A stretch of DNA of 64,000 nucleotides, from NCBI GenBank assembly GCA_030248295.1, contig JASANH010000908.1, positions 124,001-188,000 of the forward strand, given 5' to 3'. The notes under the pieces were generated by a model. That model was not told where the DNA came from and did no database searches. It saw nothing but the letters and a program-made list of their open reading frames with translations. Numbering within the stretch: position 1 is the stretch's first letter; each line of letters begins with the position of its first letter. The position numbers were made by a program, and so were the translations under genes. Below are positions 39,441 to 63,605 of this stretch, in pieces. Origin of the DNA: Mesodorylaimus sp. YZB2_4 (lineage: Eukaryota; Nematoda; Enoplea; Dorylaimida; Dorylaimidae).

Positions 39441-40060
39441 CCCATGAAAATATATACTCTATGCTTATCATGGGGAGCAACCTTTCGAAAAAAGTTCATA
39501 CATTGTCGATTGTTAAAAAAATTACTAGCACTTCACATAATCCGATCCGAAATTCTTCCCATATGATCCAATCCGACAAACCCCGTCCAATCCGATCGTG
39601 ATTCGTGACCCTGTTGTAGCTGTGGTTCGGCCAATCAAGGCAGAATTATTGAAGATGATTTTAAATGGTTGCCTCAAAATAATGTGGCGCCGATTACAGA
39701 AAAGAAAAAAAAAGAATGTTGTGGTGGAGTATTTAAAAACAATTTAACCTGTTAACGATAAGCAGTCAGAAAATTTTGATGTTGTAGATTTAATTGAGTC
39801 ACGAATCTGTTTCATCTCATGTCATGTTTTTTCTGTCACTTTCAGGGGCTGTAGAGGATGTAGGCTAAAGAGTCGGATGAACTAAGCTAGCGCTACTGTA
39901 CGAGCGCTAGCTGAGGCGCTACGAGCAGTGGTGGCCCAACGACAATGTAAAGTGGCCACAAAAGCTGGAAAAAACCAAGCCCCGCACTGTTATCAGAGTT
40001 TTTGTCAGCTTACGCTCGCATCTTGATCGCAGATTCCCCGCACTCCGTGCCCCTAGAATC

Positions 40061-41703: not shown

Positions 41704-43059
41704 TTACAAGTTGACAATCAAGACAGATAAATGATCCTTAAATTGCAATTTGGAAGACACTGTATCTACTAATTGTTTAGCACCAAAATATTTCTTGTGC
41801 TTATTTTGAGCAACGATTTCCAGCGCTTCCTTTCCAGTCAAAACATCCCACACACATCTGGTGGCCATGATAACACTCAAATTCGGATTTTTGGACAAAG
41901 TGATGACAACGAAATTGGGTCCATTCATTACCCATCCTTTATCCTTGAAATTCGCAGCACCGAGCGCACGAAAAACTGGCACAATTCCACCAATCCGCCA
42001 GTTGCCCATGACCCGAGTCAAAGTTCCACCAGCTGCAAGGAGTTGGGTGGCGTTCTGAAACACCCCGTGCGAGTGGATGGAAGAAAACTAGTGAATGGAC
42101 TTACTGTACCTTGCCAGCTTGATGGTCCTGAGTCACGTACCATTGACCACGAGCAAAGAAGGCAGCGCGGCTGTCCCCGAGATTTGAAAGAACGAGATAT
42201 TGGCTCGTACGTACACCTATCAAAACGGTTGATCCACATGCGCTTTGCGGCGAGTTTTCTTTCTCGATTAAGAGTCGATCAAAATTGGCAATCTCTTCTC
42301 TAACTATCTGAAACGATTAAGCATTGTTCACGAAAAAGACGATAAAACGTCGTCAAAGCAGGGCTCACTTTCATTATTTGCGCATCATCCAGCGTGAACT
42401 CCTTGTTCATTCGGTTTAGTATAATCGGAAGCAGATACTTTTCTGCCGCATTGCAAAAAAACTGAAAACGAGCAAAAAGTACACACGCGATCGCGCGGAT
42501 CGATGATCAGATTGATAATGCTTAGACCGAATCGATCAAGCACTTCAAAGAACGAACTTGTTTCATACCGAACAGCCACCAAAACCTTCAAAAAGCCCAA
42601 ACGCCCAAAGCATGTGCGCCCCCGTTCGTCCGTTATCGATTACAGCAAATCGTTGAAAAAATTTTGATCGCCGATTTTTCTCAGCGTAAAACGCGAAACT
42701 GCGATTCTCAAATCCCCAATGAGATTTATTGTTAGCTAAAAGATTTTTTCTTAGGCCGCTGTTTCTAAAACAGAAAATAGGTCTAAGAGCATACTGAAAT
42801 TTTGTAGCGTGCGAAAATTCATTTCAAATGGGTCCGCTAGAAATCAAATAAATTCATGGGCAAGATTTATCAACAAATATAAAAAATTACTTTTAATCGA
42901 TACCACAAACCATGCAAAAGCGACTATCAAAATCACGGAATTGACGCATCCCCAAAAGATCGGTACGTTCGACGACTGCGCAGGCTTGCGTTTTCGATTG
43001 CAGAAAAAATTTTTGCGTTTACAGCGTTTCGATTTCTGCTGCTGATCTTGCTGATCCAT
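41704..43059 (-). CDS. Membrane-anchored PP2C-like protein, copy 1
   Basis: Exons (complement): 42891-43059, 42569-42735, 42369-42461, 42110-42307, 41704-42054. Phases 1, 0, 0, 0 all agree, giving 325 aa. The N-terminus is Lys/Arg-rich, with a single membrane helix at about residues 33-53 (NSVILIVAFAWFVV). A PP2C-fold domain follows: QRFAVIDNG; FGLFEGFGG (the DGHGG metal site has Glu for Asp); CGSTVLIGV; LGDSRAAFF; TQDH; ATRCVWDVL (Arg where ASDGLWD has Asp); and KDHLSVLIV (the final Asp kept, Asn changed). The fold is therefore present, but two metal-binding Asp are replaced, so catalysis is doubtful. By the positive-inside rule the domain would face outside or the lumen (inference). It is head-to-head with copy 2. 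Confidence 0.88.
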
Positions 43060-43256
43060 GCGCACAGATCTCGTCCATGTAACTGATCCAATCGACCAGA
43101 CGCAACATGAGTCCCCTGCCTAGAACTTTACACTGCCGTCTCTTCTGCACAGCATTGGACTGCAAACCAATGGCATTGGTCGGCTTGGACGGAGTCAACT
43201 CACCCTAGAAGTCTGCATTTTCGTTTGCGTCCTCAATATTGATCGTTTGGGCAATC
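43060..43256. promoter_or_regulatory. Shared divergent promoter region
   Basis: Only 197 bases separate the two start codons of the head-to-head PP2C-like genes, so both promoters and 5'UTRs must lie here or within the first exons. No TATA box is evident. The inference is from spacing only. Confidence 0.5.
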
Positions 43257-45076
43257 ATGGCAAAACATACAACAAAGCCTAAGAAAAACCGACGATCAAA
43301 ATTTAGAAAACTTTTTCGCGGATGGTATTGGAAAAGTGCTATTGGCGTCGGTTGCTTGTCCGCTTTCGTGTGGTATTGCTGGATACATATTGACCGTACG
43401 CCAGCTTTAAAAATTCTAGATTTAAAAAAAATTGTAACATCCGCGTTATAGAAATTTGGCCAGGGGCAAAGTTTTCCACTAATTTTCAAGAATTAATGAG
43501 CAAAAGTGGGTTTTATTTTTTCATGGTCGATATAAAAATAAGGCAATTTTTCTAGCCGGTAGCAGTGAGGAATGGGGATTTCAGCGCGGCGGTTTTGCTT
43601 TCTATGCGACGAAAGGAAGGCGCAAAGAAATGCGAGATCGATTTGCTATTTATCATAATGGAGAAACTGGCCACAATGCATTGTCAGTTTTTGGTATTTT
43701 TCGAGGATTCCGTTGTCATGTAAGCGCTAGCTTTTTATCTGCTACGCAGCATTCGGTAATTCAACTCATTCGCAGCAATGAGCCTGTACAATTGCTTGAA
43801 TTCCCTCTACGAGCTTCGCATGAATGATGTCCCTTACCCCAGCGTGAGCGCTCGTTGTACAATTTGTAAGACACCATTTTATTTCATGGATGTTTTTCGT
43901 GGTTTCTGGCTTTAATTTATCGTTTCCTTTTCAAAAAGTAACAGGTGTCGCCATTCTGCAAGAAAAAGCTTCGAAGCGCTGCCACGCGCAAAGATCTTGA
44001 AGTTGAAGTCTATTCATTCAGATATCTAAATTTCGTCTAATTGTCATAAGCGGTTTAAAGCGGGAAGTTCAAACTCTTAGTTGCACGACGTCTGTGAAAT
44101 AGTCCATCACGAGGAAGTCCCACATTGCGCTGGTTAGTTCTCCTGTGTTACTTGGGGTGATCTGGCAGTCAGGGCGTGATGCAAAATACGTAGTCCACTG
44201 GAGTTCAGTTTTTAAGCGTGTCTGCACATCGGATCGATCGATCCTAGCCTCACAGAGATTTAAAATATTATTTAAAAGTATGCTAATAATAAAGTGAATG
44301 CAATTTCTATTGCTTTCTAGAATTATTCAAATGCGGTGGAACGGGTACTGTTTCCGTCCATAGTGGAAACAGTTAAAGGATCATATATGTTTGAAAATCA
44401 CATGAGAAATGTAAGAAACTATTTTTCTGCACATTTCTTGCGTTCATCATTTACTCTTGATTTTTAGTTAATTTACAAAAAGTTTTCCAATTTCGATGAG
44501 GTGCTACTGCGACAAGGAGCCGAGGACAGCTTGTGCGGTGCGATGGTTCTGATCGCTATTCGAGCCAGTGGTCGAATTATGATTGCGAACATGGGCGATA
44601 GTCAGGTCGTTGTCTCAACAGAAAACACGGAAAAATTGTTATTTTCTTCGCCCAACAAAGTGGAGGAGGTAACTAAAGCCTAAAACACCATTTTTTGATC
44701 TTTTTTTAAATTATTGTCACAGGTCACTCGAAAAATCGTGAATGACGGGGGATCAGTATCGAAGGTAAACAATGTTTGGAATATCGAAGGAATTTTTCCA
44801 TCCAGTCGAGGACTCGGAGTGGCGAAATTCAAGACAAAACAATGGATCAAAGGGACACCATTATTTCAAGAAATTGATATGAAGGAAGTTGGTTCGTCTT
44901 CTGTTGCAATGATCAGCACAGGCAGTGTGTTTAGCGTTATAAATATAAGCGATTCGTTTTCGACAATTTTCGAGAATAGGAAGAAAAAATATTTTGGTGC
45001 AAAGCAATTGGTACAGGACGCTAGGCGAAAGAATCCGGTGGACAATTTGTCTGTTATGATAGTCAAATTACTGTGA
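43257..45076 (+). CDS. Membrane-anchored PP2C-like protein, copy 2
   Basis: Exons: 43257-43395, 43556-43719, 44321-44410, 44468-44668, 44723-45076. Phases 1, 0, 0, 0 are identical to the other copies, giving 315 aa. The N-terminus is basic (KKNRRSKFRKLFR), with a membrane helix at about 26-43 (SAIGVGCLSAFVWYCW). PP2C landmarks: RDRFAIYHNGETGH; FGIFRGFRC in place of the FGVFDGHGG metal site; SLCGAMVLIAI; ANMGDSQVVV; WNIEGIFPSSRGLG; STGSVFSVI where ASDGLWDVL is expected; YFGAKQLV; and VDNLSVMIV with Asp and Asn kept. The substitutions at the first and fourth blocks remove metal ligands, more severely than in copy 1. The first donor (GTACGC) is unusual but gives the right phase. Length and layout match the siblings, so the gene is probably functional as a non-catalytic protein. 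Confidence 0.88.
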
Positions 45077-45382
45077 GTCTTTCATGTCGTCTGGGGTAAA
45101 ACGTCATGAAGTGGTCTTTTAATGACAATATCAGTACTAATATCAGAAGAGCGCATTAAAACTTATTATGCGAAATTATCTCAATCTTCTGATGATCGGA
45201 TGATAGACTTCGCTGTTCAGGCGTGTGTGATTATATGACGAGTGTACACGCGGGTAATGTGCGAGATGGCCGCATTTACAGCAGTGTTAATGCGGCTAGT
45301 GTACTGTTGCACTGTTTAGCCACAGCCCTAGCCCCACTGTGGCTACACTGCGTGTAGGCTTGTGACTACGTGGCTTACCTAA

Positions 45383-46448
45383 AGGCTCCTGCATACTAGG
45401 CGCGTGGACGCGTGCGGGCGTGCGAGCGCGCGTGCGTGAACGAAAATTCAGGTATACTTCACGCGTGAAAGCTGGCGTGGGCGCGTGCGTGAAGATGGCG
45501 CGTGCGTGAGAGAATGGGGAGGGGGCGGTCGCGTGAACACGTGACGGCACCTTGCGTGAACGCGTGAAGACTCGTAGCGGATTAGTCTGCTACTGGCGGA
45601 TAGTTTCGCAGTCTCACTCGTGAAATCGAAGCCGTCTTTTGTGATTGCAGCAGATCGATATTTTTAAAATCCTTGAAAATGCCTCAAATTTGTCTCAAAA
45701 AACGTCTAGCGATAATTGCATTGACTTTTTACGCCGCCTGTAAAATCATTAAGAAACGAAAGTCTCGAAAAGGACGTCCATATGTGCGGGCTGTCAATTG
45801 TTCGAGGAAACAAGACGGCGATTTTGTGAGCCTAGTTTTGCCAATGAGACAAATGGATGAGCAGTTCCACTTTGATTATTTTCGAATGAGTGTGGATCGA
45901 TTTAATGACTTGTTGAAACTAGTTGAGAATAGATTATGGCACCAGTTTCTTTTGATCATAAATTGGTCTTTGTGATTCGGATGCGCTTTTTGCCATATTA
46001 AAAGACGGGGTCGAACTGACTCGATCAGACAAAACTTCCATTCCTCGCCACGCTCGGCGGCCACTGAAACAAAATCATTCGATAATAAAGCCACGATATA
46101 CAAGAAGCGAATTTCTCAAACCGTCGTACTTTTCGATAAATGTTAAGAGAATAGATTACGGCGACCTTTTTTCTAGACTTTTTTGGTTTCTTAACAAAAA
46201 ATCCATTAGATTCGAGACTTCACGCGCGTGCGTGATTGATCCAGGAAAAGTCAATTTTGGTCCGCACGCCACGCACCGCGTTCACGCTTAGCGTTCACGC
46301 GACCATCACGCGAGCCCAACTTTTTCGACCAGCCAGCATACTTCGACGCGGCGCGTGGCGTGGCCGCGTGATCACGTGACCGACCGCCACGCGCTCACGC
46401 CAAGCACGCACGCCCGCACGCGTCCACGCGCCTAGTATGCAGGAGCCT
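45383..46448 (+). mobile_element. PIF/Harbinger-type element with 3-bp duplication
   Basis: TAA is duplicated at 45380-45382 and 46449-46451. The ends AGGCTCCTGCATACTAGGCG and, inverted, CGCCTAGTATGCAGGAGCCT are perfect, and continue with CGTGGACGCGTGCGGGCGTG. Subterminal DNA is packed with CGCGTG/CACGCG motifs. An internal frame (45679-45975) encodes RPYVRAVNCSRKQDGDFVSL and FDYFRMSVDRFNDLLKLVEN, like the N-terminal part of HARBI1-family transposases. The catalytic DDE part is absent from the 1066 bases. The element is a deletion derivative. Confidence 0.9.
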
Positions 46449-46654
46449 TAATGCCGCTGTCTTGTCACAAGCCAAAATGTGGGAGTGATATACAGTTGTA
46501 TATCTAGGTTGCTAACTTTTAAAATCTGGCTGAAGTCTAGCTTTAGAGATACTGCACTGTTTCCTTTATCCTTGGACCACTTTATCCTCTCAAGTCTGCG
46601 TAAAGGGTGAGACAAGTGTGACAAAGCTGGCTTTATAGCTGAATTAAACCCCCC

Positions 46655-46696
46655 AAATGTTTGAAATATCGAAGGAATTTCCCCATCCAGTCGAAT
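46655..46696 (+). pseudogene. Captured fragment of PP2C-like copy 2 exon 5
   Basis: AATGTTTGAAATATCGAAGG and the following bases to CCAGTCGA match 44771-44809 in exon 5 of copy 2 at 36 of 39 positions. Neither flank continues the gene. This is a small exon shard within repeat-rich DNA. Confidence 0.75.
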
Positions 46697-46879
46697 TGGC
46701 CCAGAGCAAGAAATAACATGAAACATCATCTTTAGATCGTAAGCCAGGTTAGTCACATCACGTCCGAGTACACTACATTCGGCAGTAGCAGTCGATGACT
46801 CGTCAGCTGGGTTCGACTCCCACACTGCCCGATAAAAAAGCACAAGCTGACTGGGTAAATTCAGTGTATGGTCAAAGTG

Positions 46880-48180
46880 ACGGCTGATCTTATAAGCGAG
46901 TGGTCCAAGGTCTTCTATATCCCAAATTTGGTAGAAAGACTTATCCTGCAGATGTATTGGGACATGGGCTAGTTTCCTTCGGGAGGGGGGGGGTTAGTGC
47001 CCTGGTTCAGGGGGGCTGGTGCGCCTCTCCTAATCGTTAGTCTGGGCCGGCACGACGAGACTGACGCGTGAGCGGGAGATCGAGTCGAGTGCTCGATTTT
47101 AGTATGACCATCAGTAGAGAACTGGTCCAGAGTTCCTGGTCTGAACTTGCTCTGTGAGCACTTAGGGCTCAAATCTGTCAGAACCATTTGAGGGCCGACG
47201 TGTGCGGCTGCTCCCCAAATTGTGAGTCTATACGGCTCTTCCAGAGAGTTGCAAAATAAAGCCCACACGAGGTGCTATAGACTGCGTGGGGTCGTTCCTG
47301 TGACGAGCCAGCCTCTGGTCACCTGGTCCAAGATATGATGCTCACGCTGACCACCAGTTCTACTGTCGAGCACTAGACCAAAGTCAACACCAAAGGATCC
47401 CTCACGAACCATGCAGGAGAGAAGATGTTTTAAAAGTCCTAGATTTTCCCACAGACAAATCCGGACAAACCGAGTACCTGCCCTGGAGTCCCCCTTGACT
47501 CCTCCAGTATGAACTAAGGAAAACGACGACCGCAGATGCGCCTTGAGATTGTGCTGATGAAATCCTTGGCTCGCCATAGGGCAATCTGGGCTGACCAGAG
47601 GATGGCTCAAGCCACAGGAACAGCCGCGCAGTCCACAGACACCTCATGCCGAGTTTATTGCCACTACAAGGACTGTGAGACTAACAATTCGAGGAGCAGC
47701 CGCACTCGCCGGCAGTCAAAGGGGTTCTGACGGGCCTGAGCCTCAAGTGTTCACAGAGCAAGCTCAGAGTAGGGACTCAAGACTAGTTCGCTACCGATGA
47801 CTGCAAACCAAACCCGACACTCGACTTCGATCTCGCACTCAGTCTCGAGCTAGCCGACTTAGAAGAGGCAAAGCAGTTCCCTGAATCAGTGCATCTACAG
47901 TATAGACCAGAGAGCATAGTACATGCCACTACCACTGATCGAGGTCCCTGGCTGCACACCATACCACAGGTCTGCCAAATGGGTTGAGCAAATGCGCAGA
48001 TACGCTCCCCACGAAGATGAAGGAATTAGCTGAAAACTATTCGAACAAGAGAAAGCACTACAGTAATTTAACCCGGGGCCTGTTCTTATGCTGCAATTGT
48101 TCTTACCCACTGAGCCCACTGCCATAGCTACAAGATATCCCCGAGAATTCTAGGTGCCCTCAAGCGGTAAAAGTCACATC
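46880..48180. repeat. Dispersed repeat C, copy 2
   Basis: A longer relative of 36180-36900. It shares CGAGTGGTCCAAGGTCTTC, TTATCCTGCAGATG, CACAGACAAATCCGGACAAA, CGAGTACCTGCC and GAAAACGACGACCGCAG, and ends near GAATTCTAGGTGCCCTCAAG. Several frames of 60-110 codons inside it carry no protein signature. Confidence 0.6.
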
Positions 48181-48390
48181 AAGTCTAACCCAGTCTTGTC
48201 CAGGGAAATCTGGACATCGACACAGAACTACGCAGCTTCCTGGGCATCTGCATGACATGCAAAATACTTGTCCGAGCAGCGGATCTTCAGTGCATACAGA
48301 TCCACAGTAGGCTACAACAGACTGTCTTATTGCAGGCTTCATGTAACACACCTTCTCTTTGGCACGACACAGGTCTCATAAAGTGTCTGG

Positions 48391-48412
48391 TCACCCCCCC
48401 CCCCCCCCCCCC
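48391..48412. repeat. Poly-C run
   Basis: An uninterrupted run of cytosine of around 20 bases. It is a simple repeat close to the left end of foldback family B copy 2. Confidence 0.8.
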
Positions 48413-48452
48413 CGCCTGGCTATCGTTCATTTCAAACAAGAAAGCCCTGACT

Positions 48453-48888
48453 CTGACAAGGGAACATCACCAACCGTCAAGTCGAACTTTGGAAACCGAA
48501 AAATTGTAACATGTTTCTGGGTGCAAAAGAGAGCTCTGCGCAAAATATTAGAGGCGTCTGGCCAACTGGTCAGCAATGGTCTGCGCTTAGGTTACAGTGA
48601 AATTTTCAATGTTGGATTTTTTCTGAAAAAACCCTGAACGAGAGTGCTGGAAGCTTTAAACTCGAAACTACGAGCCCAAAAACCTAGTTTGGAAAGAACT
48701 CTGCATGTTTTCCTAAACGCTGGGTTTCCTAAAAACACAAAAATTCGGGACTTTGGACGCTAACCACTGCTGACCAGTTGACCAGACGCCTCTAATATTT
48801 TGCAGAGCTTTATTTTGCACCCAGGAACATGTTACAATTTTTCGTCTTCTAAAGTTCGACTTAACAGTTGGCGATGTTCCCTTGTGAG
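48453..48888. repeat. Foldback MITE family B, copy 2 (fullest)
   Basis: 436 bases. The left end CTGACAAGGGAACATCACCA pairs with the right end TGGCGATGTTCCCTTGTGAG (approximately). Long matched arms include AAAATTGTAACATGTTTCTG against CAGGAACATGTTACAATTTT, and GGCGTCTGGCCAACTGGTCA against TGACCAGTTGACCAGACGCC. No coding content. Confidence 0.85.
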
Positions 48889-49509
48889 AAGTACGAGTAT
48901 AAATATGCGGATTTGCAGTATGTTCGTCAAAGGTCTGCGGTCACTCTAAATTTTACCCCTCGATTACGGGAAACGTGAAATGACTTCGGACGCTGCCGCA
49001 CAAACGAATTATGTTGTGCACCAAATGACGCCCTGTCGTGCACACACGACGGATCGATACACGTGTTTGCTTCACTGTCGAAACCAGTTCATTTGATGTT
49101 TCACCGCTATTAATAAACGGCGCACAGCCGTTTCTGTGCTGGTCGATGACCCTCGCAGTACAGTACGTATTAATTTCGTGCTGAGCTCTGCATAGAGAGC
49201 GAGGATTTTTTGGAAAGCTGCTTGGCTCACAAGCGGCGTTGAACGAAACAAAATACAATTGTTACCACGTAACATGTGCCGTCAGCACGTTGAATACACT
49301 CCTACTGTATTTCAGAAATAACGTTAGACCCTGCAGGAATCACGGATTTGTCTGCGGCGCAGGAGAAAGCCAGCTGATATATCACATTCCATCACTTCAC
49401 TAAACTGGAAACAATCAGCGCAAGGAATATATTGTCAGTTAGATTATGTATCCCTCCACCAAAACAGATCTGCCACCTAAAGCTATGCAAACCGTACTGG
49501 ACAACGGAA
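48889..49509. other. Spacer before CRAL-TRIO gene end
   Basis: No gene recognised. It should hold the 3'UTR of the CRAL-TRIO gene. Confidence 0.4.
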
Positions 49510-52421
49510 TCAACTATTCAACCCATCAATACAAAACCGTTTATAGGAGGTCAACACGGTACGCAAGGGACTACTGTCGCCATGACTCGGTGTCGATGGT
49601 GCCGAATCGATGAACCCATACGACAGCAGATCCTTGAAATAGTCTTCCGATGCCTTCACTCGGTTGGACCAGTCCTTGGAACAGAACTCGGCGGCACTGC
49701 CTCCGAAATCAGCAGGCAGAGCTTCACTGTCCACGTGCTGTTGTAGTGAGAGGAGACTGGATCCGTGAAAGAACAGCTGCAAAAATGATATTACATAAAC
49801 TGAGAACCATGCATATAAAATTACACACCCTCTGTCTGAACTTTTCAGTCATAAATGGTTTCATCAAAGTCAATACGCCATCGACCAATGGAGACTCATT
49901 GAAAATATGGATAGCTTTCAATCGGCAGGGAAAACAATCTTGAAAACTTGCAAAAGCCTTCTTCACTGACGCTGCTTTGATATGTTGAAACACGTGAGAA
50001 AATGATAATGCACTGGCGTCGATCAGAACAATTACGCCGTTCACCTGTTTTGAAAAATACAAAATTAGTTACTGTGCGATAGATTTTAAAAACAGATTTA
50101 GTTTTAAGAATTTTTTAGTTTTACAATTCAATAATTTAAATTCGCGCGCTAAGCTTCTTATAGAATTATGACGTGACTAGACGTGTTATTTGGGATGGTG
50201 CGAGGATCAATGTGCGGCTATACTATACATATGCATCACATATAGTATAGCCATGAAACAATGGGCAGTTATTTTTTACAGGATGAAGAGGGAAGCCATG
50301 GCTAGTGTGCAAGGTGAAGCGACATAAGCCAGATTACGAATATCGATTTGCAATAAGCAGCTGTTGGAGAGGTGTATCTCGACCTGTTCAAGCTAGCAGC
50401 CGCATCCATGGCGCATTCACGCTCACAAATTCCGTAAGTTTACGCCGCATACGGCTTCCAGACGAAAGTGACTGACTGCAAGACTCGGCTGGTCAGGCAA
50501 AAAATACAAAAATATTTGCTTACCTGTGTTGACTCGTTGCAAATTTCTAATTCTACACTCAATAGTAGGGCTTTCAGAATATCGTCGAAACTACACACCT
50601 CGGGTCTCCAGTTGCCTGAAACCACAGATATATGTACAGGAATAGGTCAATGACGGTACGAGCCGATCTTGTGTTATGTCGATGAAGAGTGATATGAAAT
50701 CAGGACGACTGCGAGCATCAGTAACGCAAAGACACACACCAATTTAGGCGCCCCAATAACGGTCTGAGATAAGGACTAATATAATAGATGTACCTTCCCA
50801 GTCTGCTTGAGGGCGGAAGGGATGAGGGACTATCTTCCCAGTCACAACACCCGCAATCTACCCACAGGAAACGGCACAGCAGCCAGCAGACGGGCTCTAG
50901 CCTGTGTGACTCACTCAGTACAGGTGGTCCGCGTGGAGTAAAGATAGGTTCGGATCACTTTTCGGGGATCAAAATTGTTTTCTTATTTTTGAGCGATTTT
51001 CCGTTTTAAAGTACAATTTTCACACGTACAGCTTTTTTTAAATTACTTTTCCGATTATCAATCATCTATAAACTGAAATTCATCAAAAACGCAGTCTCGA
51101 TACAGGCTCGAACACGGATAAGCCAAGCAGGCTTTCCTACCACCCATAGAATTGCACGAAGAGCTGCTACAGGCTTTGATAAACAGACAGCAGCTTCCAG
51201 CATAGCGTGCTTTTGCCTGTCTATTTATGAGAATTCCAATCGTTAGAACCCCCAAACACGCCAAACCGATGGGGGTGCATATCCCCATTCTTGACCTTAG
51301 AATGGGGAGATGCAACTCGAGATCCGAGGCTGTCCAAAAGCCTGAGGAAACCAGTGTCATATGATGTTTCCCTGATGCGGACAGCGCAGGAGAAGGAAGT
51401 CCAGAGGGAAAACTGGTTTTCTTTCCGGATTTCCAGTTCCTTCCTCCAGTGAATGTGGGCCATTAGGTCAGGTTCGACTTTCAAGGTCCCAGCCAGCTAT
51501 CGGAAAAACGGGCTAAGTGGGTGCTAAAGGAAATAACAAGACTTCCCTCAACGTCAACTTCGCACAACCCTTAGCACTTACAGGCTTTGAAAACGAGGAT
51601 TCTTCTTCCATAATAATCGACAGCATTATCCAAAAATGCTAAAATGTTTTCGTCAAAAACATGGCCGACACTTGATGGAACCAAATTAGAAAAGATATCC
51701 GTCTTGTACGTGTGTCTAGCCGAATAGTAATTTAACAGCAATTTCATTGATCTTTCGTAATCGAATTTACGAGCACGGAGAAATCTAAAGGAAATGCAAT
51801 CTGTTTTTCGAGGCTGACAAAAGATTTTTTGACGCGCACGGGGCCCAAAATCTTAAAAAAGTTGGCGCTTTTGCCGTTTGGTCCCCAGGCAAAGGCTAGT
51901 ACAAGGCTGGCTGAAGCCTGATATTAGCCTAAGCTTAAGTTTTATACCAGACTAAGCCTAAGCCTAGGCCTAGTATCAGTCTAAGCCTAAGTCATATGCC
52001 AGCCTAAGCTAACCCATGTTGGGGACCAAACAGCAAAAGTGCCGAAAAAAGTTACAACGGGATATCCAAAAGAGGGGATCCTAATCAGTTGGCGACATTC
52101 TTTGAAAAATATGAACAAAACAATGAGCAAACCTGAGAAGGAATGATTCTTCTACACAAGGTCGTAGGCCGGGTTGATTCTCCATTTCGGTCACAATCAT
52201 TTGTCGCAACGCCTCGACATCTCGTCTTCGCCATTCCGCCTTCTCGTGAAGTTCCTTGTTCGCTTTCAGCGACAAATCCGAGGTCAATGTTCCCGTCGAC
52301 CCTGATGATGGTGGGGGAGAAAGATTCGAAATCGCATTTTCGGCGCCTAAAAGTTCGATAAAACTGCCATTAAGTTCCGTCAAAAGAAATCGAAAAATGT
52401 ACCTGAAGACACATTTTCCAT
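49510..52421 (-). CDS. CRAL-TRIO lipid-transfer protein (TTPA/clavesin-like)
   Basis: Exons (complement): 52403-52421, 52133-52346, 51582-51784, 50524-50615, 49829-50044, 49510-49776. All phases agree (1, 2, 1, 0, 0), giving 336 aa. The family binds a lipid (tocopherol, retinoid or phosphoinositide) in a closed pocket and moves it between membranes; it is cytosolic. Visible: a Ser-rich N-terminus; CRAL-TRIO N helices DVEALRQMIVTEMENQPGLR and ESFLLRFLRARKFDYERSMK; then the SEC14 domain VDYYGRRILVFKA, FDDILKALLLSVELEICNES, VNGVIVLIDASALSFSHVFQ, DCFPCRLKAIHIFNESPL; LFFHGSSLLSLQQHV with LPADFGG at the end. The tail after residue 300 is diverged. The exon 2 donor (GTTTGC) is non-standard. Intron 2 contains a small element with telomere-like motifs. 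No break seen. Confidence 0.92.
51855..52053. repeat. Small inverted-end element with GCCTAA motifs
   Basis: The ends GTTGGCGCTTTTGCCGTTTG and, inverted, CAAACAGCAAAAGTGCCGAA extend to about 34 paired bases. The interior (51914-52010) contains four exact GCCTAA and two GCCTAG units with related AAGCCTGA and TAAGCTTAAG. It lies within intron 2 of the CRAL-TRIO gene. Confidence 0.75.
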
Positions 52422-52866
52422 TTCAAAAAAATTACTGAAAACAGAAACACCTTCGATTCGGGCTCACTCCTTGCTGCGGACAGCGAACGAGTAAGCAATT
52501 TCAGCCCAGCAGACAACGAGCCCATACATGGCAGAACTCTTTACTATTTATTGGCGGGAAATTTGAATAAAAAACTGCGCCAGTATGCCAAAACCGGCAA
52601 CGAGACCCGACCTTGCGGAGGTGGCAACGTGGAAAATTTGACTTGTCCAATTGACCAATGACGTCGCGCCGATGTTGAGGGGGGTTGTTTTGAAATTCGT
52701 GCGCGGGATATAGAATTTTCAAGTTTTTGAAAACCGTAAAAGGTTATGCTTTGGATGTCCATCGCCGAAATCTGAATTCTCAGGCTCGATCGACCAGCGA
52801 CAGCTCATTCGATGCGCAGTGCTTTCATCCTCGCCAACTGTAGCAGGACCTTGGTTTGAACAACAA

Positions 52867-53954
52867 GGGGTCATTCATAAAGGACGTCCATCCTGGGGGG
52901 GGGGGGGGGGGTCAGCGGAAAGTGTATTGAATTACGTAGATGGGGGAGGGGGAGGCTGACGCCAAGTGGACGTCAACTTCACAAAATTAGTGCGAGATAT
53001 CTCAGAAAATCGGCGTCATGATCATTACTAAATACGAGATATAAAATCACTATTATTCAAATAATCAAACGTCGATCCAAAGACTCTTCGTTTGGTGACT
53101 CAGATCAAGTTCAAGTTCAAGTTTTTCAAAACATTTTTTTATCCTTCAGCTTCTCAGGCGGATAAACGATTTTGGTGGTGCTGGCGGGGTTTTTGTCGCT
53201 GAAATCGGGTGCCTTCAGTGATAAAGCCTAGCAGGCGTAGGAGAAGTCGGCCGGACAAACCCTGACTTATAGAGTTTTGCGACTATATCTACCGCTGAAA
53301 CATCAAACCGACGGGCTGACCCTTCCCAGCAAGGGGGGCTCGATTACTCTCCCCCACTCGCCATGGTCCACTGGCGCCAGAACTTACACTTATTTGTTCC
53401 TTCTCTGTGATGTCAGAGACGATGCTGAGCTGCCAGCATCGACTGATCCGATCCTCAGCGTGTATCCCGATCTCGATGGTGCTGATTCGATTCAAGAAAT
53501 GAGATACTAATATGAAGGGGGAGACGTCTTTGCTACTACGCCCTCACTAGCCTGCATTTCTCGCTGTCACTGTTTCTGACCACTCCAAAAAACTCTGAAG
53601 AACACCACCTCCTAAAGCGGAAGTCAATACCAATGTGGGAGAAAATTTGCGATTTTTCAATGATATGTAGCGTGGTAACAAAGATTATTTACAAGCAGAA
53701 ACAGCGCGAAAAATTTTAGTTGCAATTTCGGCAGATGCGGCAGTCGAATCAGACTGAAGCGTGATCCCCATCATTTTGGTGGATCGGTCGATGCTGGTAG
53801 CAATGCTTTTTTAGAATGAATATTTTCTATGGAGGGGGTCCGCTTGGTGGACGTCCATTTTTAGGGGTCAGGGCAAAATGGACATTAGGTGGATAGGGGG
53901 AGGGGGTTGTCAAAAAACGCGTTTTTTGCTGGACTTTATTTGTGGATGGCCTCC
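52867..53954. mobile_element. G-run element, family D copy 1
   Basis: The outer ends GGGGTCATTCATAAAGGACG and, inverted, GGAGGCCATCCACAAATAAAG are related. Inside each end is a block of G-runs on the same strand: a long poly-G near 52899 with GGGGGAGGGGGAGG, and GGGGGAGGGGG near 53900. The middle (about 53270-53510) resembles 30.6-30.8 kb. No transposase frame. Confidence 0.6.
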
Positions 53955-55019
53955 AAGGAAAAATTTAAGAAGCCATAAAATAATTTTATGCATACCACAA
54001 CAAAACTCATCAGAATCCGAAAAAAACTAAGCTCAAATTTAACGAAACCGAAAATCAGTCAACGGATTTCTTCAAGATATTTATAATCGCTCTTACAGAA
54101 ACATTTGCAGCAATTGTATCAAAATTTGATTACTATGGCGGATAAACTGTTTTAGCACGTTTCATACGAGCTTGTTGCACAAGTTATTCAGCACCAAAAT
54201 ATTCTTCTCGAATATTTTCGACGATACTCAAAATTCCGTTTAGGCTCATAACAATCCACACTCCACTTGTGGCAAATATAAATCCTAACGATCCGTCGGG
54301 AGAGGCATCGAAAAAGGGCCGAGATGGGATTGAGGCGAGCACGGCTCATCGGCAAGACTCTATCAACCCGCCATTTATTCTTGGAGAAAATCACAGGAAT
54401 ACTAGCTGCTTTCATATGCTTCTTCTCCTAAATTACAACAATTCCTTCTTCTGTATTTTCAGAAAATATGCAGCTGATACTGTGTGCTGGTCACTTGTCC
54501 AGGTATTCAATTTATGGTCGAAGATCATAGCTCTACTGTCTCCGAAATTCATAATTACGAAAAAATTTTTGTCCCGACAATCAAGTGAAGCCGTTAAACC
54601 GCATAAACTGTTTGACTTCTTGAATAATTCCTGAATCGAATGACCTCATTTCTTCCAGTATTAGCTGAAGATTGAAGAGGAAAGCAGTGCACTACCATGC
54701 CGCCATACATTTTAAAAAATTTAGCATTTATTTACTCGGGACATTCGATTTGGATTCATATTTCCTGGTGACATGTTGCGTAGGATTTTGTGAAAGAAGA
54801 CTTATCATGGATAGTACAGAGTCATAGCTACAGTATGTTTGCTAATGTGGTTGGTTACGACGTCACATCAGCAAAGACATCAACGAGAATGATATTCTAA
54901 GACCAGTGATTAACGTTACGCAGCCCGGAACGTATGTGGGTATATCGCCTGCAATCACTGACAGTTGATTCTAACTGTGACGATTCCGTATAATGTAGGA
55001 ATCTAGCACCTGGTGAACA

Positions 55020-56110
55020 TGGATTAAGTGTGCCGATTATAAGAACATCGCGCCTGTTATCACGCCGGCCTTGCGAATTTTGATAAATCGATCACTGTCG
55101 GAAGAGTCTTTTCCAGCGATCTGGAAAGGGGCCCAGGTCACGCCAATTCCCAAGCCAGGTAATAAAAGCAGTCTCAAATCGTATCGCCCGATTTCCCTGT
55201 TATCGATACTGTCAAAACTATTGAAGCGCCACCTTGATCAACTGATCCGCCCTTTTTTTGTCATTATCGCTGATCCATGCCGCGCAATTTATCTATGATT
55301 CCCTCAATTCGGAAAATTACAAATTTTTTGTTGGGACTTTCTTGGATTTGGAAAAGGTGTTCGAGCAGGTAGTGCACTCATTATTATTAGAGCGACTTCA
55401 TGGAAATCGCCGTATTCCGACGAAAAACTCATTTGCTGACTTTCGTCTTACCTCCATGGGAGGTCTCAATGAGTGGTGATCGGAGACTGTTCTTCGGGCA
55501 CTGCTCCTGTGTGTTCAGGCGTGCCTCAGGGCAGTGTCCTGGGACCGACACTTTTTGCAGCCTATATCGACTTGCTATTGCAACAGTTTTGTGGTCTATT
55601 CCCATCATCTCTGCTACAAGCCTTCGCTGATGGTACCGCCCTGTTTATCCCAGTTGAACGTCTGAAAGAGGCAAAAAAAACGCAATGCAACCAGTGATCG
55701 ATTTTATCGCGGCCCGGGTGGAAGGTGCCGGCTTGGATTGCATCAGAACCATCTTTATTTTTGCGCGGTCATAGGATCACTTTTTTAACGAGGTAAAACA
55801 TCTTGGTGTTATTTTTTGTCCAGACTTGAAGTTTACTGAGCATGTGGTTGAGATCGTTAAGAAGTCCAATGTGCTTTAAGATCGTCGTCAAGATCATTAA
55901 GAAGTCAAATAGATGCGCTTAGACGTAAACTTGGAAGGCACAAGCATCCTTCAGTTTTGGGATCAGTTTATAATGCCTGTGTCCGTTCTGTTTTGGAATA
56001 CGGCTCTGTATGCTGGGATCCGGTTTTAAAAGCTGATATTTCTAAATTGGAACGGTTGCAGTTTTATGCGCTTAGGCTGTATCTATATGATTTTACGTGC
56101 GCTTAGGAGG
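55020..56110 (+). mobile_element. Non-LTR retrotransposon reverse transcriptase, decayed
   Basis: Pieces in several frames. PAIWKGAQVTPIPKPGNKSS and SYRPISLLSILSKLL are RT blocks 1-2. LIHAAQFIYDSLNSE comes next. Then SGVPQGSVLGPTLFAAYIDL and FADGTALFIPVE appear, where the catalytic block normally reads YADDT-like, so one catalytic Asp is Gly here. Further on, SVYNACVRSVLEYGSVCWDP and LERLQFYALRL are the C-terminal part. The order and motifs fit Jockey/CR1-type LINEs. Frame changes and stops show it is dead. It interrupts the PP2C-like pseudogene. Confidence 0.88.
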
Positions 56111-56157
56111 ATGCTTTAAACAGAGCTAGCTGGTCGTCACTAAGCGATAGTAGAAAG

Positions 56158-56373
56158 CGTCCGCCGCTTGAGGGCACCCAGAGAGTCGCCCAAAGCCAGG
56201 TGTGCAAGGCCAGCGACGGACTTACAAACTGCCGTCGAAGACCAGTTCCCACTCTGCGAACGGCCTCACTATACTGCCGTCCTTAGCCAGAACAGAACTG
56301 CGGCCTAACAGTCGGGGCTACTGGCCCAAGCAATGCGGGACCAACGCCTTAACCAACTGAGCCATCGCGGCTT
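56158..56373 (-). repeat. tRNA-derived SINE head, reverse orientation
   Basis: Read on the minus strand it begins CGCGATGGCTCAGTTGGTTA, a strong tRNA A box (TGGCTCAGTTGG), and continues GGCGTTGGTCCCGCATTGCT. It lies head-to-head with the plus-strand SINE that starts at 56374. Confidence 0.75.
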
Positions 56374-56770
56374 TTCTAGCGGCTGCGGTGGTGCAGCAGT
56401 TTGGCATTCGTCTCTCCGTATCGCTTGGGAGCGAGTGGCTGGGCTCGTCCCGGGTTCGATCCCCGGTGATGGAGGTCGGTTTGCGAAGCATAAACCCTCG
56501 CTGACCTTGCACGCCAGGCCGTGGGTGACTCGCCCGGTACCGCCGAGGTGCTCCGATTGGAGAGACGGAAGCCAGACGAGGAGACAGTCTCGGCTGTCGA
56601 ACATTAATAAGGGTTTAAAGCCGGCCCGCTATCTTCTGAGGAAGTCAGTGTCCTGTCCTGGGCCCTCGTGTGAAGGTGTTCCTAGTGGAGACTCGTAGAG
56701 GAAAGCTGCTGTGTGTGCTGGTCCCCGCATAGCCATGCTTGTAAGGTTTGACTGGTGACTAGTTACGCAA
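56374..56770 (+). repeat. tRNA-derived SINE, family 2
   Basis: TTTCTAGCGGCTGCGGTGGTGCAGCAG forms the A-box side. GGTTCGATCCC (56453-56463) is a perfect B box. The body CCCTCGCTGACCTTGCACGC, with CCGAGGTGCTCCGATTGG and GACAGTCTCGGCTGTCGAAC, recurs at 62.5-62.7 kb and inverted at 61.9-62.1 kb. The tail CCCTCGTGTGAAGGTGTTCC is shared with family 1. Confidence 0.85.
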
Positions 56771-57300
56771 ACCGAGCTTCGGCTCACAAAACTTTCAAAA
56801 AAGGAATCAGTAACGTGGCTGATATGGTAGGAATCTACAACAAATCACGCACATTTTGCCAGTCCCAGTGGGTTGAAAGCGGGCAAGTAAAAATGTGGCC
56901 TTCCACTCGAACTCGTAGCTGTGCGCACAAGCCCCATATAACTACATAGGTATGCAGGAAAAGGTTTATTCGGTGTAAAAGCTTTTTTGAGTTGCCGACT
57001 CAGAAAGAGGATTCAGCGATATCAGTCACCAGAAAGCGAAGACTCGCCGTTGATCTAATGGCGACATCTAATTCACTAACAATCAGCATCGAATGCTTTC
57101 ATTGCCGTCCCGTCATCTTCGCAGAAGAGGTTAAAAATCTTTGGCAGATGGAAAATCAAGTTTCATCGGTCACGGGAATACTGTATAGACACACAGTAAA
57201 GTATAAATACAGTCGAAGGTGCATTCAGTTTAGCGTCGAACGAGCTGACTTCGCTTGTTCTATGTCGAATTTTCTTATTTTCACGACAGCATGATGCGCT

Positions 57301-57424
57301 AAGCTCAAAGTACACAGTTCGGAGCGATGCGACATTTTTGGGTGAACTGACAATGTGTAAAGATGCCTACAAAGTCGCATCGCAAGCTTAGTTGACGCAT
57401 CGCATCGAACTATACTTCCAGCTT
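57301..57424. repeat. Short palindromic MITE, family A copy 3
   Basis: GCGATGCGACATTTTTGGGT, GAACTGACAATGTGTAAAGA and the right arm CGCATCGAACTATACTTCCAGCTT match copies 1 and 2. The left arm has lost about 18 bases. Confidence 0.75.
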
Positions 57425-58380
57425 AATTTTTTCAAAAGTTTATGATTGCACATAAGTGAAAAAAATCGGGACTGAACAAACCGCTTTTGCACATCCCCCC
57501 GGTCAGTCTGTTTGGTCGAAAGTAGAATTCAGGTTTTCTCTTCTCTTGCCCCATGGGCCGTCTACTATCGAGATTGCAATCACCTGATCAGAAATCATTC
57601 GGTTATCAAATCTGCCTGGTCGTGCTTACACGCTCTCTTTACCTCATAGTCCCGTCCGGGCTTTCAAATCACTGTCAGGTAAACTCTAACAGTGCCGTAT
57701 TTGAATCCCCTGAAAAGACCGAATCCCAACAAAAATGAATGACCCGATCTTTGGCTGTGAAACGCAGAAAATCGATCCATCCTTTTCCTGCCTTTATCTT
57801 TAGCACCATAGAAAGTAATTTTTACATGTTTTTCATGTGCGAAGAGAATGCCATTTATTGATTACCTATTTCTTACACCCAGAATTTCACAAACTTACTC
57901 ATAAGTTCAAATTCTTGGAAATTCATTTCAAGTATATCTGCTAAAAAATTTATGAAGTCATAAAAAATTTCTTGACCCGCGAAGTGGAACTTACGCGTAT
58001 CGGTGTAAATCAAAATGAACAAAATAAGGAAAACGCAAAACCCAAGTGTTTTCTTGTATCGCGGTGCACCAGCAATTCTCGAAGCTCCTGGTTTTTCTTC
58101 CATCTTTTTGTAAAAGTTGTTCGCAAACTTATTCTTGAAACAATCACGTACTTGACGCAGTTGAAGGAGACAAGATTGATGAAAGGCGTGCACTGCATGG
58201 CACCCCGACATACACTGTACATTGAAAATTTTGGCATATTTTATTCATTGCCCGTTACAATAGACAGATCACAATTCGAAAACGGAACGTGTAGGCAAGT
58301 TAATACAGTACTATAAAGATCACACGAATCAAACCTCTCAATTTTCCATGAAAAAAAGGCTAGACTTATTGACTCAATGT

Positions 58381-61300
58381 TCAATTCTCCGACAAAAAAT
58401 TTACAATCATAACGCTTATATTATCTTTCGGTTTTTTGAGTAAAGCTTTGCTCACCAATTGTTTCGCGCCGAAAAACGGCTGGTCTTTGTACGCATCTAC
58501 AATAGCTAGAACCTTTTCATTCCTGCTTACAACGTCCCACAAGCCACTCGTAGCCACGAGGACATAATCGAGTGGCTCACTAGTGGTGTTGTGTACGGTA
58601 ATTTGAGGGGTCGCAGTAATCCAGCCACTTTTTTTGAACTGACTGAGCCCGAGTGCACGACTTGTCCGAAATAGTCCTTCAACACGCCAGTGTCCTTTCA
58701 CAAATTTTACTGAACCATTTGCTTGGGTGATGCGGTCACTTTCCTAAACAGCAGTAAATAATTGTGAAAATTTAAATTCGCGCTTTTATACGGGACACCA
58801 CCGCTTATGACAGAACGACATGCGCAGGGGTGGCCCACATTACAGCGTGCGAACAAGATAAAAGCATTGCTCGCAAAAACACCCATCCAACTAAAAACTA
58901 GGTTTCCTCTCCTTTCACGTCACCTTTTTCTCACCACACGTAAGTGAAGAAAACATATAATCTAAAGAAATTTAACTTCAGATGCGGGTCTGGTTCGCGC
59001 ACAAAGTTCAAAATGAAGAGCTCTAAAATACTTTATTTTTGTGTCAGGTGTTTTTCGTGGATGCTGCAGAGGCAACGTCTGGGCACTATGGAACCATCCA
59101 TAAAGGTCGACCGCAGCCTCGGGGGAGGGGGGCTAGCAAAAAGTGGTCAGGTCCGGTCGGGGGGGGGGGGGGGGATAGCGGCCAATGGTCGACCGCAGCA
59201 AAAGTTTAAACCTTTGATGACAAAAGAGCACCTTTTACATTCACTGTTCAAACCTTTAAAACTTTTTGTCTTCTCTTCTCCTTGGTCGTTCATTCTCGAT
59301 AATGCAATTTCGGGTTCATCAGGGATCTTATTCCCAACTGGAATGGCATCCGATCGAAAAGGGAAAAGTTCGGAGGCGGTGGCTCAGCTGGTTGAGGCGT
59401 TGACTCGCCTAGCTGGCCAACAAGTACGGCTGGAAGGCCGAGGTTCTATTCGGACGGTGGACGGCAGTTTAGTAGCTTGTCGCTGGCTTGAGACGCCTGA
59501 CTCAGGGCGACACCCCTGCCACTGTCAAATGGCGGACCCCCAGCCAAGGAGTAGAGAATTGGAAACTGTCCTCGAACACCAGTCGGGAAGGTCCCTAAGC
59601 TAATCGTAAGCCCCTTCTCACCCAGTATGCCCTCGTGTGGAGGTGCTCCCAGTGAAGACACAGGAGCCTGCCGTGAGGGTTGGTCACCTCGAGGGATAGG
59701 TCGGGATCACCTTTCTCCAGGATCGGGATCAGGGCAAGCCCGATCGGGATTGGGATTTTTTGTTTGAGGTCGTTCATTGTTTGCACACGAAGGAGATGAG
59801 TCTATTTTCCTCACTAAACCACACTTTACTCGTCCAGGTCTTTTTAGGGTTTTTTTTCAGGTCGAGCTTAAGTCATTTTACATAAGCTGCAATTGATGAG
59901 TACATTCGCTGTTTCGATGCACGTCCAGCAAGGTCAGCTTGGGCTAACGATAAGTAAAATTAGTGTTGCTATCATTATCGCTTCGAGCCCATGTTGGTGT
60001 TGCCTCTTAATCGCAGATCTGATGGATCAGAGTGTACCCACCGTGCTTCTGCATATCATAATTATATGCAAAATCCCGATGCCTCAATATCAGGGTCGGG
60101 ATCGGGATCGGGATCCCCACCTATCCCTAGTCACCTCACAGCCGCGCTTATCATATCATGACTGCTGGCCAGCTAATATGATTGAAAGTCCCGTGGAGAA
60201 CTGGGCTGGTGCGGCCCAGCCCGCAAAACTTTTTAAAAAACAGGGGAAAAAGTTGTGGGAAAAGTTTATGGAGGCTTCTACAGAATAGAAATCCACTCCA
60301 TAAATCAAAAAAGATCTTTTTTCGAAGGAGATGGCACCTCGTCGAGCTCGAGAAAGCATAAGATGAAACATTTCACAAAACTGCGTTTGGAAGGGGGGTT
60401 ATGGCTGAAGTGGTCGACCATTTTTGAGGGGGGCTCGCGAGAAGTGGTCGGTATTCGGTCAGAGGGAAAGGGGGGTGGGCCAAAATATCGAGATTTTGTG
60501 CGGTCGGCCCTCATGGATGGCCCCTGCGCGCGGATGTATTTTTTGATTTTCATGGATGAGAGGGTATAGGCAGCAAACCTAAACGAGGAATTATAAACTG
60601 TATCTTGTGGACAAAGTCGTCACTCCCACGTTCACCGAAATTCATGTGGCTTCCTGCCGCATCTCACATACAGATTCGATTTTGACTAATTGAACCTTGT
60701 CCAAACGTGAAGTTCTCAAAAAGGGTTCTGGTCAAATCTGTGGCATTAATACCAATCAAAGTGATAAAAGATGCATAAAATATCTTACTTCTTCCGGTTT
60801 ATGCTGAATTGTTCCGGTCATATAATCACCATGCACCAACACAGCACGATTGTCGCCGATGTTGGCGATCACTAAGTTCGTCTTATAATAAATACCAATC
60901 AGAGCCGTTGTCCCGCACATACTTTTAGAAGACATTCGATCCATCATTTTCTTGTCAAAGCCACTTATTGTTTTGGCGATTAGCTAACATTTACAAAACA
61001 ATGAAAATATTTTTATAGAGCCAACAAATCTAAGACTTACATTAGCCAAGATGTAAGGATCGTCGGGTGATTTCTTCGCGACTCGTTTCAAGATTGATGG
61101 TAAAAGTTTAACTTTCGCTTTGTTTGCGTAATCCTAAAATTCAAGTAAAATATCGTAGGAAATCATAAAAATTAACGCAAAGACTATTAGGCCCAGTTTC
61201 AGGCAAACTCTAAGGGGCCGTTCAAAAACGACGTCGTATGCAAATCAGCTATTTTCGACCCCCCCCCCCTCCCCCCCTATCGTATTTTGTCGATTTGAGC

Positions 61301-63605
61301 CTGACCCCCCTTTTCGACGTCGAACAAGCCAATACCCCCGCCCCCCCCCCCCCCAAACTGCAAAGGGGGAGTAAGGACATATTTCAAAAAAATTTCATGA
61401 GTATCGGCGCACTTCACCCTGCCGCTGCTCATAATCACATCACGTACGAATCCGCATGTTCACATACTCCTATCGGTATACATTCCAAGAATGTTTTTCG
61501 GAACGTTTAGAGACATTCAGTAATTAGATTTCAGTAACAATTTGGCAGAGGTAAATTGTGCTGATGGTTTCACAGCTTGACTCCACGCCTTTAATTCCAA
61601 AAGATTGTTTGTCAATTTTTGAAATGCACTAGTCAAAAATCGAATAAGCAATATAAAAGCAAGACGAATAACTCTATATGATAGAGCACATTTTTTAAAT
61701 CAAACTTTAACCTTTTTGCTTTAAAAAATTTTTTGAACTGAAGACCGTTTTTGCCTCAAGCTGGCCAACAGTCAAACCCTCTAAACGAGGCTGTACGGGA
61801 ACCAGCTAACACACCAGCTCCCCTCTGCGCGTCCCCACTAATTGTAAGAACACCTCTACAGAAGGACATCTTCGATTGGACGATGGCGGGCGGGCTTTGA
61901 ACCTTGCCCCTTGTTCAGCAGCTGAGAGTGTCTCCTCGTATGGCTTCTGTCTCTTGACTCTGAGCACCTCTATGTTACTGAGTGAGACCCCACGGCTTGG
62001 CGTGCAAGGTCAGCGAGGGTCGCCAGTGATTGAACCCAGGGTGAGTCCAGCCACGCTACTGACCAATACGGAGAGACAAATGCTGAAACCGCGCCGCACC
62101 AATGCGGCCGCTTCCTATAACGAACTGAGTCTGGCAAATCAACATAATTATAACCAAAACTATCATAGGTGACCCAAAAGTGGCGGACCTGCGCTCATCT
62201 GACCGTAATCAGGCTCTCGCGGGAGAGTTCGAAAGGGACGAAAAACGCTGGAATACCTGGTGCAAAAACGATGTCGTTTTGCCTTTGACCCCCCCCCTCC
62301 CCCTTGTCGTTTTTAGTCGTTTTGGTGCTGACCCCCCTCCCCCCCCCTTGCGTACGACACCGTATTTGAACGGGTTCTAAGGTCGGTTTGCGAGCGCGTC
62401 AGTCCATCCTCCGCCGATACAGAGACCCAAAGCGGCCGCGTGGCGGTGCAGCACTTCGACATTCGTCTACCCATGCTGCTTGGCGGCGAGTGGCCTGGGC
62501 TGGTCGCTGATGCCCCGGTCGCCGGCGGGTTTGCGAACCATGATCCCTCGCTGACGTTGCACGCCAGGTTGTGGGCGCCTCACGACTCACCTGGTACCAT
62601 CGAGGCGCTCTGAGTGAAGAGATGGAAGCCAATCGGAGACAGTCTCGACTGCCCAACACTGACAGAACTCACCTACATTGTCCGAGGAAGTCAGCGTCCA
62701 GTCCAGGATGCTCTCACGGAGGTGCTCCGTGGATAGGTCAGATGTAACCTGCTGCGAGAGCTGGCCACCTTGCGACCTACCTTACCATGCCATGACTGCT
62801 GCCCAGGTACTCGCAAACCGGGTCCCGTGGGGGAGCCGGGGTGGCCCGGGGCCGAACCCACAAAATTTTTTTAAAGCGCGCCAATGCCCAATCCTACTGT
62901 ATTTTTAAACTCAAAAATTTACTTACTGGGCATCCAATTCCTCGAAACAGAGCGAAGGCCAACGACCGATTTTCGTTTGTCCCGTTGCTTAGAAAGGCGA
63001 ACCGATCAAACATTTTATTTTCACCAATTTTTACAGACAGAAAAGAAAAATTGTCGCCTTTGAACGCCCATTGCTTCAAGCTGATGTCTAGAAAATGTAC
63101 TCGTAAAAGTGTTGGAGTGAAAATCAAAAAACTTACTCAATTGCTTCTCCAATTTTTTAAAATTTACTTTGGAAGTCCGATTAGGCGGGTTTCGCGGGGT
63201 CGACTTTGTCTTAGCAATTTTAGAAGAATTCGAACTCGATATATCCGATTTATTTGCACTCGACGTTGACTTGGACGTCTTCGGAAAAGAAACTTTTGGT
63301 TTTGGTTGAGCCAATTTTTTAGGACCACCTGTCGAATCGACGGGATCATCTTTTGGATGAGGCGGATCTTGACTTTTCGACTTTTGACGAGTTGCCCACT
63401 TTGAGCGCTCATATTCTTGTTTGATTCGAGTCCCGGCCATCCACGAGACAAAAATAATGAATATGGATACAATAACAATAAGGTAGATCCGATCGACGCG
63501 ATCGGCTTTCTGTCTCACCAAAATACGGATTTTCTTCATCATACCTTTCGTTTTTCGATCAGTTTTTCGTTTTTGACTTATCTTCCGATTAGTAATTTCG
63601 GCCAT
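58381..63605 (-). CDS. Membrane-anchored PP2C-like protein, copy 3, long linker
   Basis: Exons (complement): 63137-63605, 62927-63087, 61041-61133, 60789-60983, 58381-58743. Phases 1, 0, 0, 0 as in copies 1 and 2, giving 426 aa. The N-terminus is basic, the membrane helix is at about 40-57 (IYLIVIVSIFIIFVSWMAG), and then about 100 residues of Lys/Ser/Pro-rich linker (KPKVSFPKTSKSTSSANKSD) follow. The PP2C domain carries MFDRFAFLSNG; FALFRGIGC in place of the DGHGG metal site; MCGTTALIGI; ANIGDNRAVLV; GHWRVEGLFRTSRALG; VATSGLWDVV (Ser for the Asp of SDGLWD); FFGAKQLVSK; and KDNISVMIV with Asp-Asn kept. The extra linker explains its greater length. Introns 2 and 4 are 1.8 and 2.0 kb and are loaded with transposons. 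All splice sites hold, so the gene is probably expressed but non-catalytic. Confidence 0.9.
59375..60230 (+). repeat. SINE family 1, interrupted by a hAT-type insertion
   Basis: GGCGGTGGCTCAGCTGGTTG is an A-box head, and GAGGTTCTATTCG a weak B box. The body CAAATGGCGGACCCCCAGCC, ACCAGTCGGGAAGGTCCCTA and GCCCTCGTGTGGAGGTGCTCC matches 33.5-33.8 kb. The sequence breaks at 59690 and resumes at 60138 with the normal tail (GCGCTTATCATATCATGACTGC). Confidence 0.82.
59691..60129. mobile_element. hAT-type MITE with 8-bp target duplication
   Basis: GTCACCTC occurs at 59683-59690 and again at 60130-60137, an exact 8-bp duplication inside a SINE whose two halves otherwise join. The ends GAGGGATAGGTCGGGATC and, inverted, TAGGGATAGGTGGGGATC fit the hAT pattern. 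GGGATC/GATCCC units are repeated just inside both ends. The length is 439 bases with no transposase. Confidence 0.9.
61214..62377. mobile_element. G-run element, family D copy 3, in PP2C-like intron 2
   Basis: The outer ends GGGGCCGTTCAAAAACGACG and, inverted, GAACCCGTTCAAATACGGTG match and continue into TCGTATGC and TCGTACGC. C-run blocks on the same strand lie just inside both ends: CCCCCCCCCTCCCCCCC near 61260 with a 14-base C run near 61340, and CCCCCCCTCCCCC near 62290 with CCCCCCTCCCCCCCCC near 62335. A reverse-oriented SINE lies inside. Confidence 0.65.
61860..62110 (-). repeat. tRNA-derived SINE family 2, reverse orientation
   Basis: GGCGTGCAAGGTCAGCGAGG and TGATTGAACCCAGGG are the reverse complements of the body and B-box region of the 56.4 kb SINE. 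The head ends near CCGCGCCGCACCAATGCGGCCGC. Confidence 0.75.
62430..62810 (+). repeat. tRNA-derived SINE, family 2 copy
   Basis: GGCGGTGCAGCACTTCGACA, GTTTGCGAACCATGATCCCTCG, CACGCCAGGTTGTGGGCGCC and GACAGTCTCGACTGCCCAAC follow the 56.4 kb copy in order. The B box is degraded. Confidence 0.8.

Follow-up and report, generated by a model that had tools for sequence, protein, structure and literature searches.

A 64,000-nucleotide stretch of DNA from the dorylaimid nematode Mesodorylaimus sp. YZB2_4, analysed here as a single window, contains a cluster of genes whose products appear to combine one membrane helix with a protein phosphatase 2C (PP2C) fold. The question raised by this locus is what such proteins are related to, and whether they are still enzymes. 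The reading that best accommodates the evidence, with a probability of about 0.65, is that the cluster encodes pseudophosphatases derived from PPM1L (PP2C epsilon), tethered to a membrane and acting by binding, and that this tandem family arose by duplication of one five-exon gene.

Gene structure of the cluster

Gene models rebuilt from the sequence resolve four genes between positions 41704 and 63605, of which A, B and C are complete and D is broken; both the number of genes and, to the nucleotide, the outer limits of the cluster agree with the original prediction. Gene A (43059-41704, minus strand; exons 43059-42891, 42735-42569, 42461-42369, 42307-42110 and 42054-41704) encodes 325 amino acids, with a helix near residues 34-54 followed by the PP2C domain, and gene B (43257-45076, plus strand; exons 43257-43395, 43556-43719, 44321-44410, 44468-44668 and 44723-45076) encodes 315. 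The two genes lie head-to-head as a divergent pair, with 197 bp (43060-43256) from start codon to start codon. Gene C (63605-58381, minus strand; exons 63605-63137, 63087-62927, 61133-61041, 60983-60789 and 58743-58381) encodes 426 amino acids, and differs in that its helix is followed by a Ser/Lys-rich linker of about 100 residues and that its second and fourth introns measure 1793 and 2045 bp. G or C runs can be seen by eye in these long introns, at 59160-59175, 61260-61355 and 62285-62350.

Every intron of the three models is bounded by GT and AG, TTTCAG-like acceptors occur among them, and the models read through without an internal stop codon. The exon-4 donor of gene A is GTACAG; a consensus donor, GTAAGT, lies five bases downstream, but splicing there would throw exon 5 out of frame. 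The three genes have a pairwise identity of 32-33% and follow one exon plan, as had been proposed, consisting of five exons with junction phases 1, 0, 0, 0 at matching places in all three. Junctions 2, 3 and 4 occupy identical alignment columns in each gene, and the first junction is found six residues ahead of a conserved tryptophan (T57/W63 in A, P47/W53 in B, N157/W163 in C), although the aligner places the first junction of C in another column because of the C linker. The accompanying claim that the first intron always follows the helix holds for all copies, with the qualification that in gene C it does so only after the linker, which is part of the same exon. A tandem origin, also proposed earlier, is retained here, whereby a single five-exon gene of the PPM1L lineage would have been duplicated into the present family.

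Gene D lies directly downstream of gene C on the same strand. Its first exon, encoding the helix, is open up to a phase-1 GTAAGT donor (58103-57995, minus strand), and is followed by an exon-2 fragment (FYGAKDKGRKRMDRFSAF...LFRGFK; 57700-57813, minus strand) and by fragments of exons 4 and 5 that carry stops and frameshifts (54151-54645, minus strand); no exon 3 was found for this gene. Between the exon-2 and exon-4 fragments is a broken reverse-transcriptase-like sequence (55017-56106, plus strand), with RVT_1 matches (E = 1e-05 and 0.003) that both fall below the gathering score. A 39-bp scrap of gene B, 92% identical to part of its exon 5, is found at 46656-46694 (plus strand). When the family profile was run against all six frames of the 64 kb, only genes A to D were recovered, the next matches being at chance level (E = 2.8 and 3.3), and tRNA and Rfam scans gave no match.

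The PP2C fold and a probable relationship to PPM1L

Assignment of the proteins to the PP2C family was upheld by a PF00481 search of the models, in which all three complete copies scored above the gathering cut-off of 20.3 bits: 63.4 bits for A (E = 3.3e-17), 64.8 for B (E = 1.3e-17) and 112.3 for C (E = 4.1e-32). A profile built from the family matched 63 different PDB sequences with E values of 0.01 or below, with the top solved structure scoring 64.2 bits, and the best 60 of the 63 are all named phosphatases or HAB1. Among the matches listed are Protein phosphatase 1A, PPM1B, PPM1K, several chains named 'Protein phosphatase 2C', and 4jnd, which we take to be C. elegans FEM-2. A structure predicted for exon 5 of gene C, together with the corresponding exons of A and B, had low confidence (pLDDT 45) and favours neither side. 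Relatives were also sought by tblastn in prokaryote and viral contigs, where 73 and 32 pattern stretches, respectively, yielded none.

The original prediction recognized no described counterpart of a membrane-anchored PP2C protein, a claim that does not survive comparison with PPM1L. PPM1L is described in a review as an ER protein, targeted there by a transmembrane motif at its N-terminus and acting on IRE1 (PMC9107372); it is also stated to dephosphorylate CERT at ER-Golgi contacts (PMC7057175). It has the same domain order as A, B and C, an N-terminal transmembrane segment and then a PP2C domain, and it is also the best-scoring member of a comparison panel of three human paralogues (PPM1L, PPM1A and PPM1K) that were entered as provisional sequences. 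Two of the three were borne out by solved structures: PPM1A is identical to 1a6q at 382 of 382 residues, and PPM1K is identical to 4da1 across the 270 aligned of 282 residues. The letters of PPM1L are unconfirmed, and no PPM1L chain is present among the best 60 of the 63 PDB matches. The family profile scores 150.4 bits against this provisional PPM1L, as compared to 51.6 for PPM1A and 47.1 for PPM1K, and within the panel PPM1L is the best BLAST match of each protein (102 bits versus 45 and 35 for A, 81 versus 32 and 29 for B, and 131 versus 62 and 55 for C). Stretches of the form W-x-F ... RR ... DRF, and FGAK, are common to the provisional PPM1L and the nematode proteins.

From these scores, bearing in mind a provisional yardstick and a panel of three, we infer that the cluster proteins most likely descend from the PPM1L lineage. 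They differ from PPM1L in a more basic N-terminus, a conserved cysteine pair and their tandem arrangement; moreover, PPM1L is catalytically active and its metal centre is complete, whereas A, B and C have lost metal ligands. Descent would thus have retained the PP2C fold and discarded the metal centre.

The membrane anchor and its orientation

The predicted basic N-terminus and single hydrophobic segment are present in A, B and C, although the segment of gene B is weak and is not the top peak of that protein (mean Kyte-Doolittle values are 2.29 in A, 1.49 in B, 2.55 in C and 1.72 in exon 1 of D). It had further been suggested, by the positive-inside rule, that the domain might face outside the cytosol. 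Flank charge, taken as the net charge over 15 residues on the N and C sides of a helix with hand-set limits, is +4/+2 in A, +7/-2 in B and +4/+3 in C, and +2/0 in the provisional PPM1L, which thus shows little bias; in gene D only the N flank (+5) is usable, because the 15 residues on the C side overrun the exon-1 donor. The suggestion is thus strongly favoured in B and moderately in A, but finds little charge bias to support it in C.

These charges, together with the N flank of D, are the starting point for a different view of the family, in which a type II topology places the PP2C-fold domain in the ER lumen or extracellularly, catalysis is unneeded, and the cysteine pair is joined by a disulfide close to the old active site. 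Two cysteines are indeed conserved without exception in A, B and C, and C has no others among its 426 residues; going by PP2C topology, both would presumably lie by the opening of the old active site. The exon-2 fragment of gene D, however, lacks the first of them as judged by eye. Ten NxS/T sites follow the helix of C, a number reached in 3 of 5000 shuffles and in keeping with a luminal domain, but the counts in A and B are ordinary (reached in 563 and 2243 of 5000 shuffles, respectively). Sequon counts were consequently rejected as evidence for a luminal domain, A and B being not above chance.

The relevant parts of IRE1 and CERT are cytosolic. Since PPM1L acts on both proteins (PMC9107372 and PMC7057175), homology predicts a cytosolic domain for its relatives. 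The charge difference, moreover, is moderate in A, and in C it is small. A PPM1L-like ER location with a cytosolic domain has a difficulty of its own, namely that the flanking charges of A and B point the opposite way. Taken together, a type II topology for the family seems rather unlikely. Somewhat less likely still is a fuller scenario in which a PPM1L-type gene was inverted, such that the gain of a basic N-terminus reversed the anchor and moved the domain to the lumen or cell surface, with loss of the metal centre and gain of the cysteine pair. Were inversion true, the cluster would encode PP2C-fold binding proteins of the lumen or extracellular space that had multiplied in tandem within one nematode lineage, and the PP2C fold would have been put to use outside the cytosol.

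Selection or decay

Tethered pseudophosphatases, the reading preferred here, should be distinguished from genes on their way to extinction. Gene D, broken and with reverse-transcriptase-like sequence between its fragments, could be viewed as the end stage of a decay in which A, B and C are also engaged, and the high dN among the copies (0.69-0.75) is compatible with this view. Against it, A, B and C are free of stops and their GT-AG introns stay in frame. Simulated drift almost always introduced stops: when the domain of gene A was allowed to drift by substitution only to 60% identity, the open frame was kept in 1 of 2000 runs. In all three pairs, the second codon position differs least and the third most, and the sole pair for which both rates could be computed, A-B, gives a dN/dS of 0.69/1.67, the other two being saturated. 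The codon pattern and the drift simulation indicate that the copies have probably been under selection for most of their history, and ongoing decay of all three is improbable.

Loss of the metal centre

Positions are given in PP2C alpha numbering and include E37, D38 and D146. The remaining positions considered (D60, H62, D239, D282, N283 and R33) are numbered as in PMC8622459. In the order A, B and C, E37 is replaced by F, R and F, D60 by E, R and R, H62 by F, F and I, and D239 by R, G and S. Together the four replaced residues presumably touch all three metal sites. By contrast, D146 and D282 are kept in all three proteins, R33 in A and B (E in C), D38 in B and C (Q in A), and N283 in B and C (H in A). 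The changes at D60 and D239 are also visible in alignments of the family profile to PDB sequences, and the fragments of gene D, aligned by eye, carry R in place of D60, F in place of H62 and S in place of D239.

Of the metal ligands that mark an active PPM phosphatase, D282 is therefore kept, and E37, D60 and D239 are replaced in every complete copy. Because known PPM phosphatases need two or three metal ions (PMC12002173, in excerpt), enzyme activity of A, B and C is unlikely. The residues at 60, 62 and 239 are lost in all four copies, which suggests that the founder gene was already inactive. It could be argued that the proteins are active phosphatases with an altered metal centre, given that D146 and D282 persist throughout, that R33 and D38 each persist in two of three, and that the glutamate at the D60 position of gene A might still bind metal, but the replacement of E37, D60, H62 and D239 in all three makes this very improbable. 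Ligand loss, which the original prediction missed, shifts the likely function from enzyme to pseudophosphatase, and with the fold kept and the metal centre gone the proteins are most likely pseudophosphatases. Their identity as PPM1L-like pseudophosphatases is highly probable.

A possible binding role and known pseudophosphatases

How an inactive, anchored PP2C domain might function is suggested by pseudophosphatase precedents such as TAB1. The helix would tether a PP2C-shaped binding module to the membrane, and the module might grip the partners or phosphorylated substrates of an active phosphatase, or the phosphatase itself, thereby serving as a scaffold or competitor. This binding or competitor mechanism is drawn by analogy and is tentative.

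TAB1 is without a membrane helix, and EGG-4 and EGG-5 have the tyrosine-phosphatase fold rather than that of PP2C. According to PMC8622459, TAB1 is a PP2C-fold pseudophosphatase in which D60 and D239 are lost, and EGG-4 and EGG-5 of C. elegans are nematode pseudophosphatases; the cluster proteins resemble them in these respects. A closer kinship of the cluster to TAB1 than to PPM1L can hardly be upheld, as TAB1 has Glu for the D282 that A, B and C keep (PMC8622459, in excerpt) and no TAB1-named chain is among the best 60 of the 63 PDB matches, the scoring panel itself having consisted of PPM1L, PPM1A and PPM1K. PHLPP1/2, as described in an excerpt of PMC12002173, similarly combine a PP2C fold with altered metal ligands, but possess a PH domain and leucine-rich repeats; a Pfam search of A, B and C with an E-value limit of 1 matched neither.

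In the literature consulted, only TAB1, PHLPP and fungal Cyr1 are named as pseudophosphatases with a PP2C fold, and among the matches listed from open-licence literature there was no description of membrane-anchored nematode PP2C pseudophosphatases. A PPM1L-derived anchored family, if that is what the cluster encodes, would represent a further path from enzyme to binding module, one in which tandem copies are combined with a contrast of intact and broken genes at one locus.

Neighbouring features

Several other features share the window. Between genes B and D, at about 49500-52420 (minus strand, exons joined by eye), is a gene whose product has a CRAL-TRIO domain (PF00650, E = 1.1e-27). Positions 17526-18251 and 15196-15666 (both plus strand) contain part of a gene for a ligand-gated ion channel, with a Neur_chan_LBD match of E = 7.9e-25, and a second frame whose weak match to the membrane region of the channel (E = 0.0094) is below the gathering score. 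The ORF at 24695-25801 (plus strand) encodes a 7TM receptor with its top match to the Srsx chemoreceptor family (PF10320, E = 1.3e-17), a family that is, to our knowledge, nematode-specific. This receptor match and the TTTCAG-like splice acceptors of the cluster are consistent with a nematode source. A 353-residue frame at 39911-40972 (plus strand) consists of a hydrophobic segment and then Glu/Lys-rich repeats, and matches nothing in Pfam at an E-value limit of 0.01. Finally, two stretches rich in GCGTG/CACGC downstream of gene B, at 45380-45570 and 46220-46450, seem by eye to be mutually inverted, and are possibly the ends of a mobile element.
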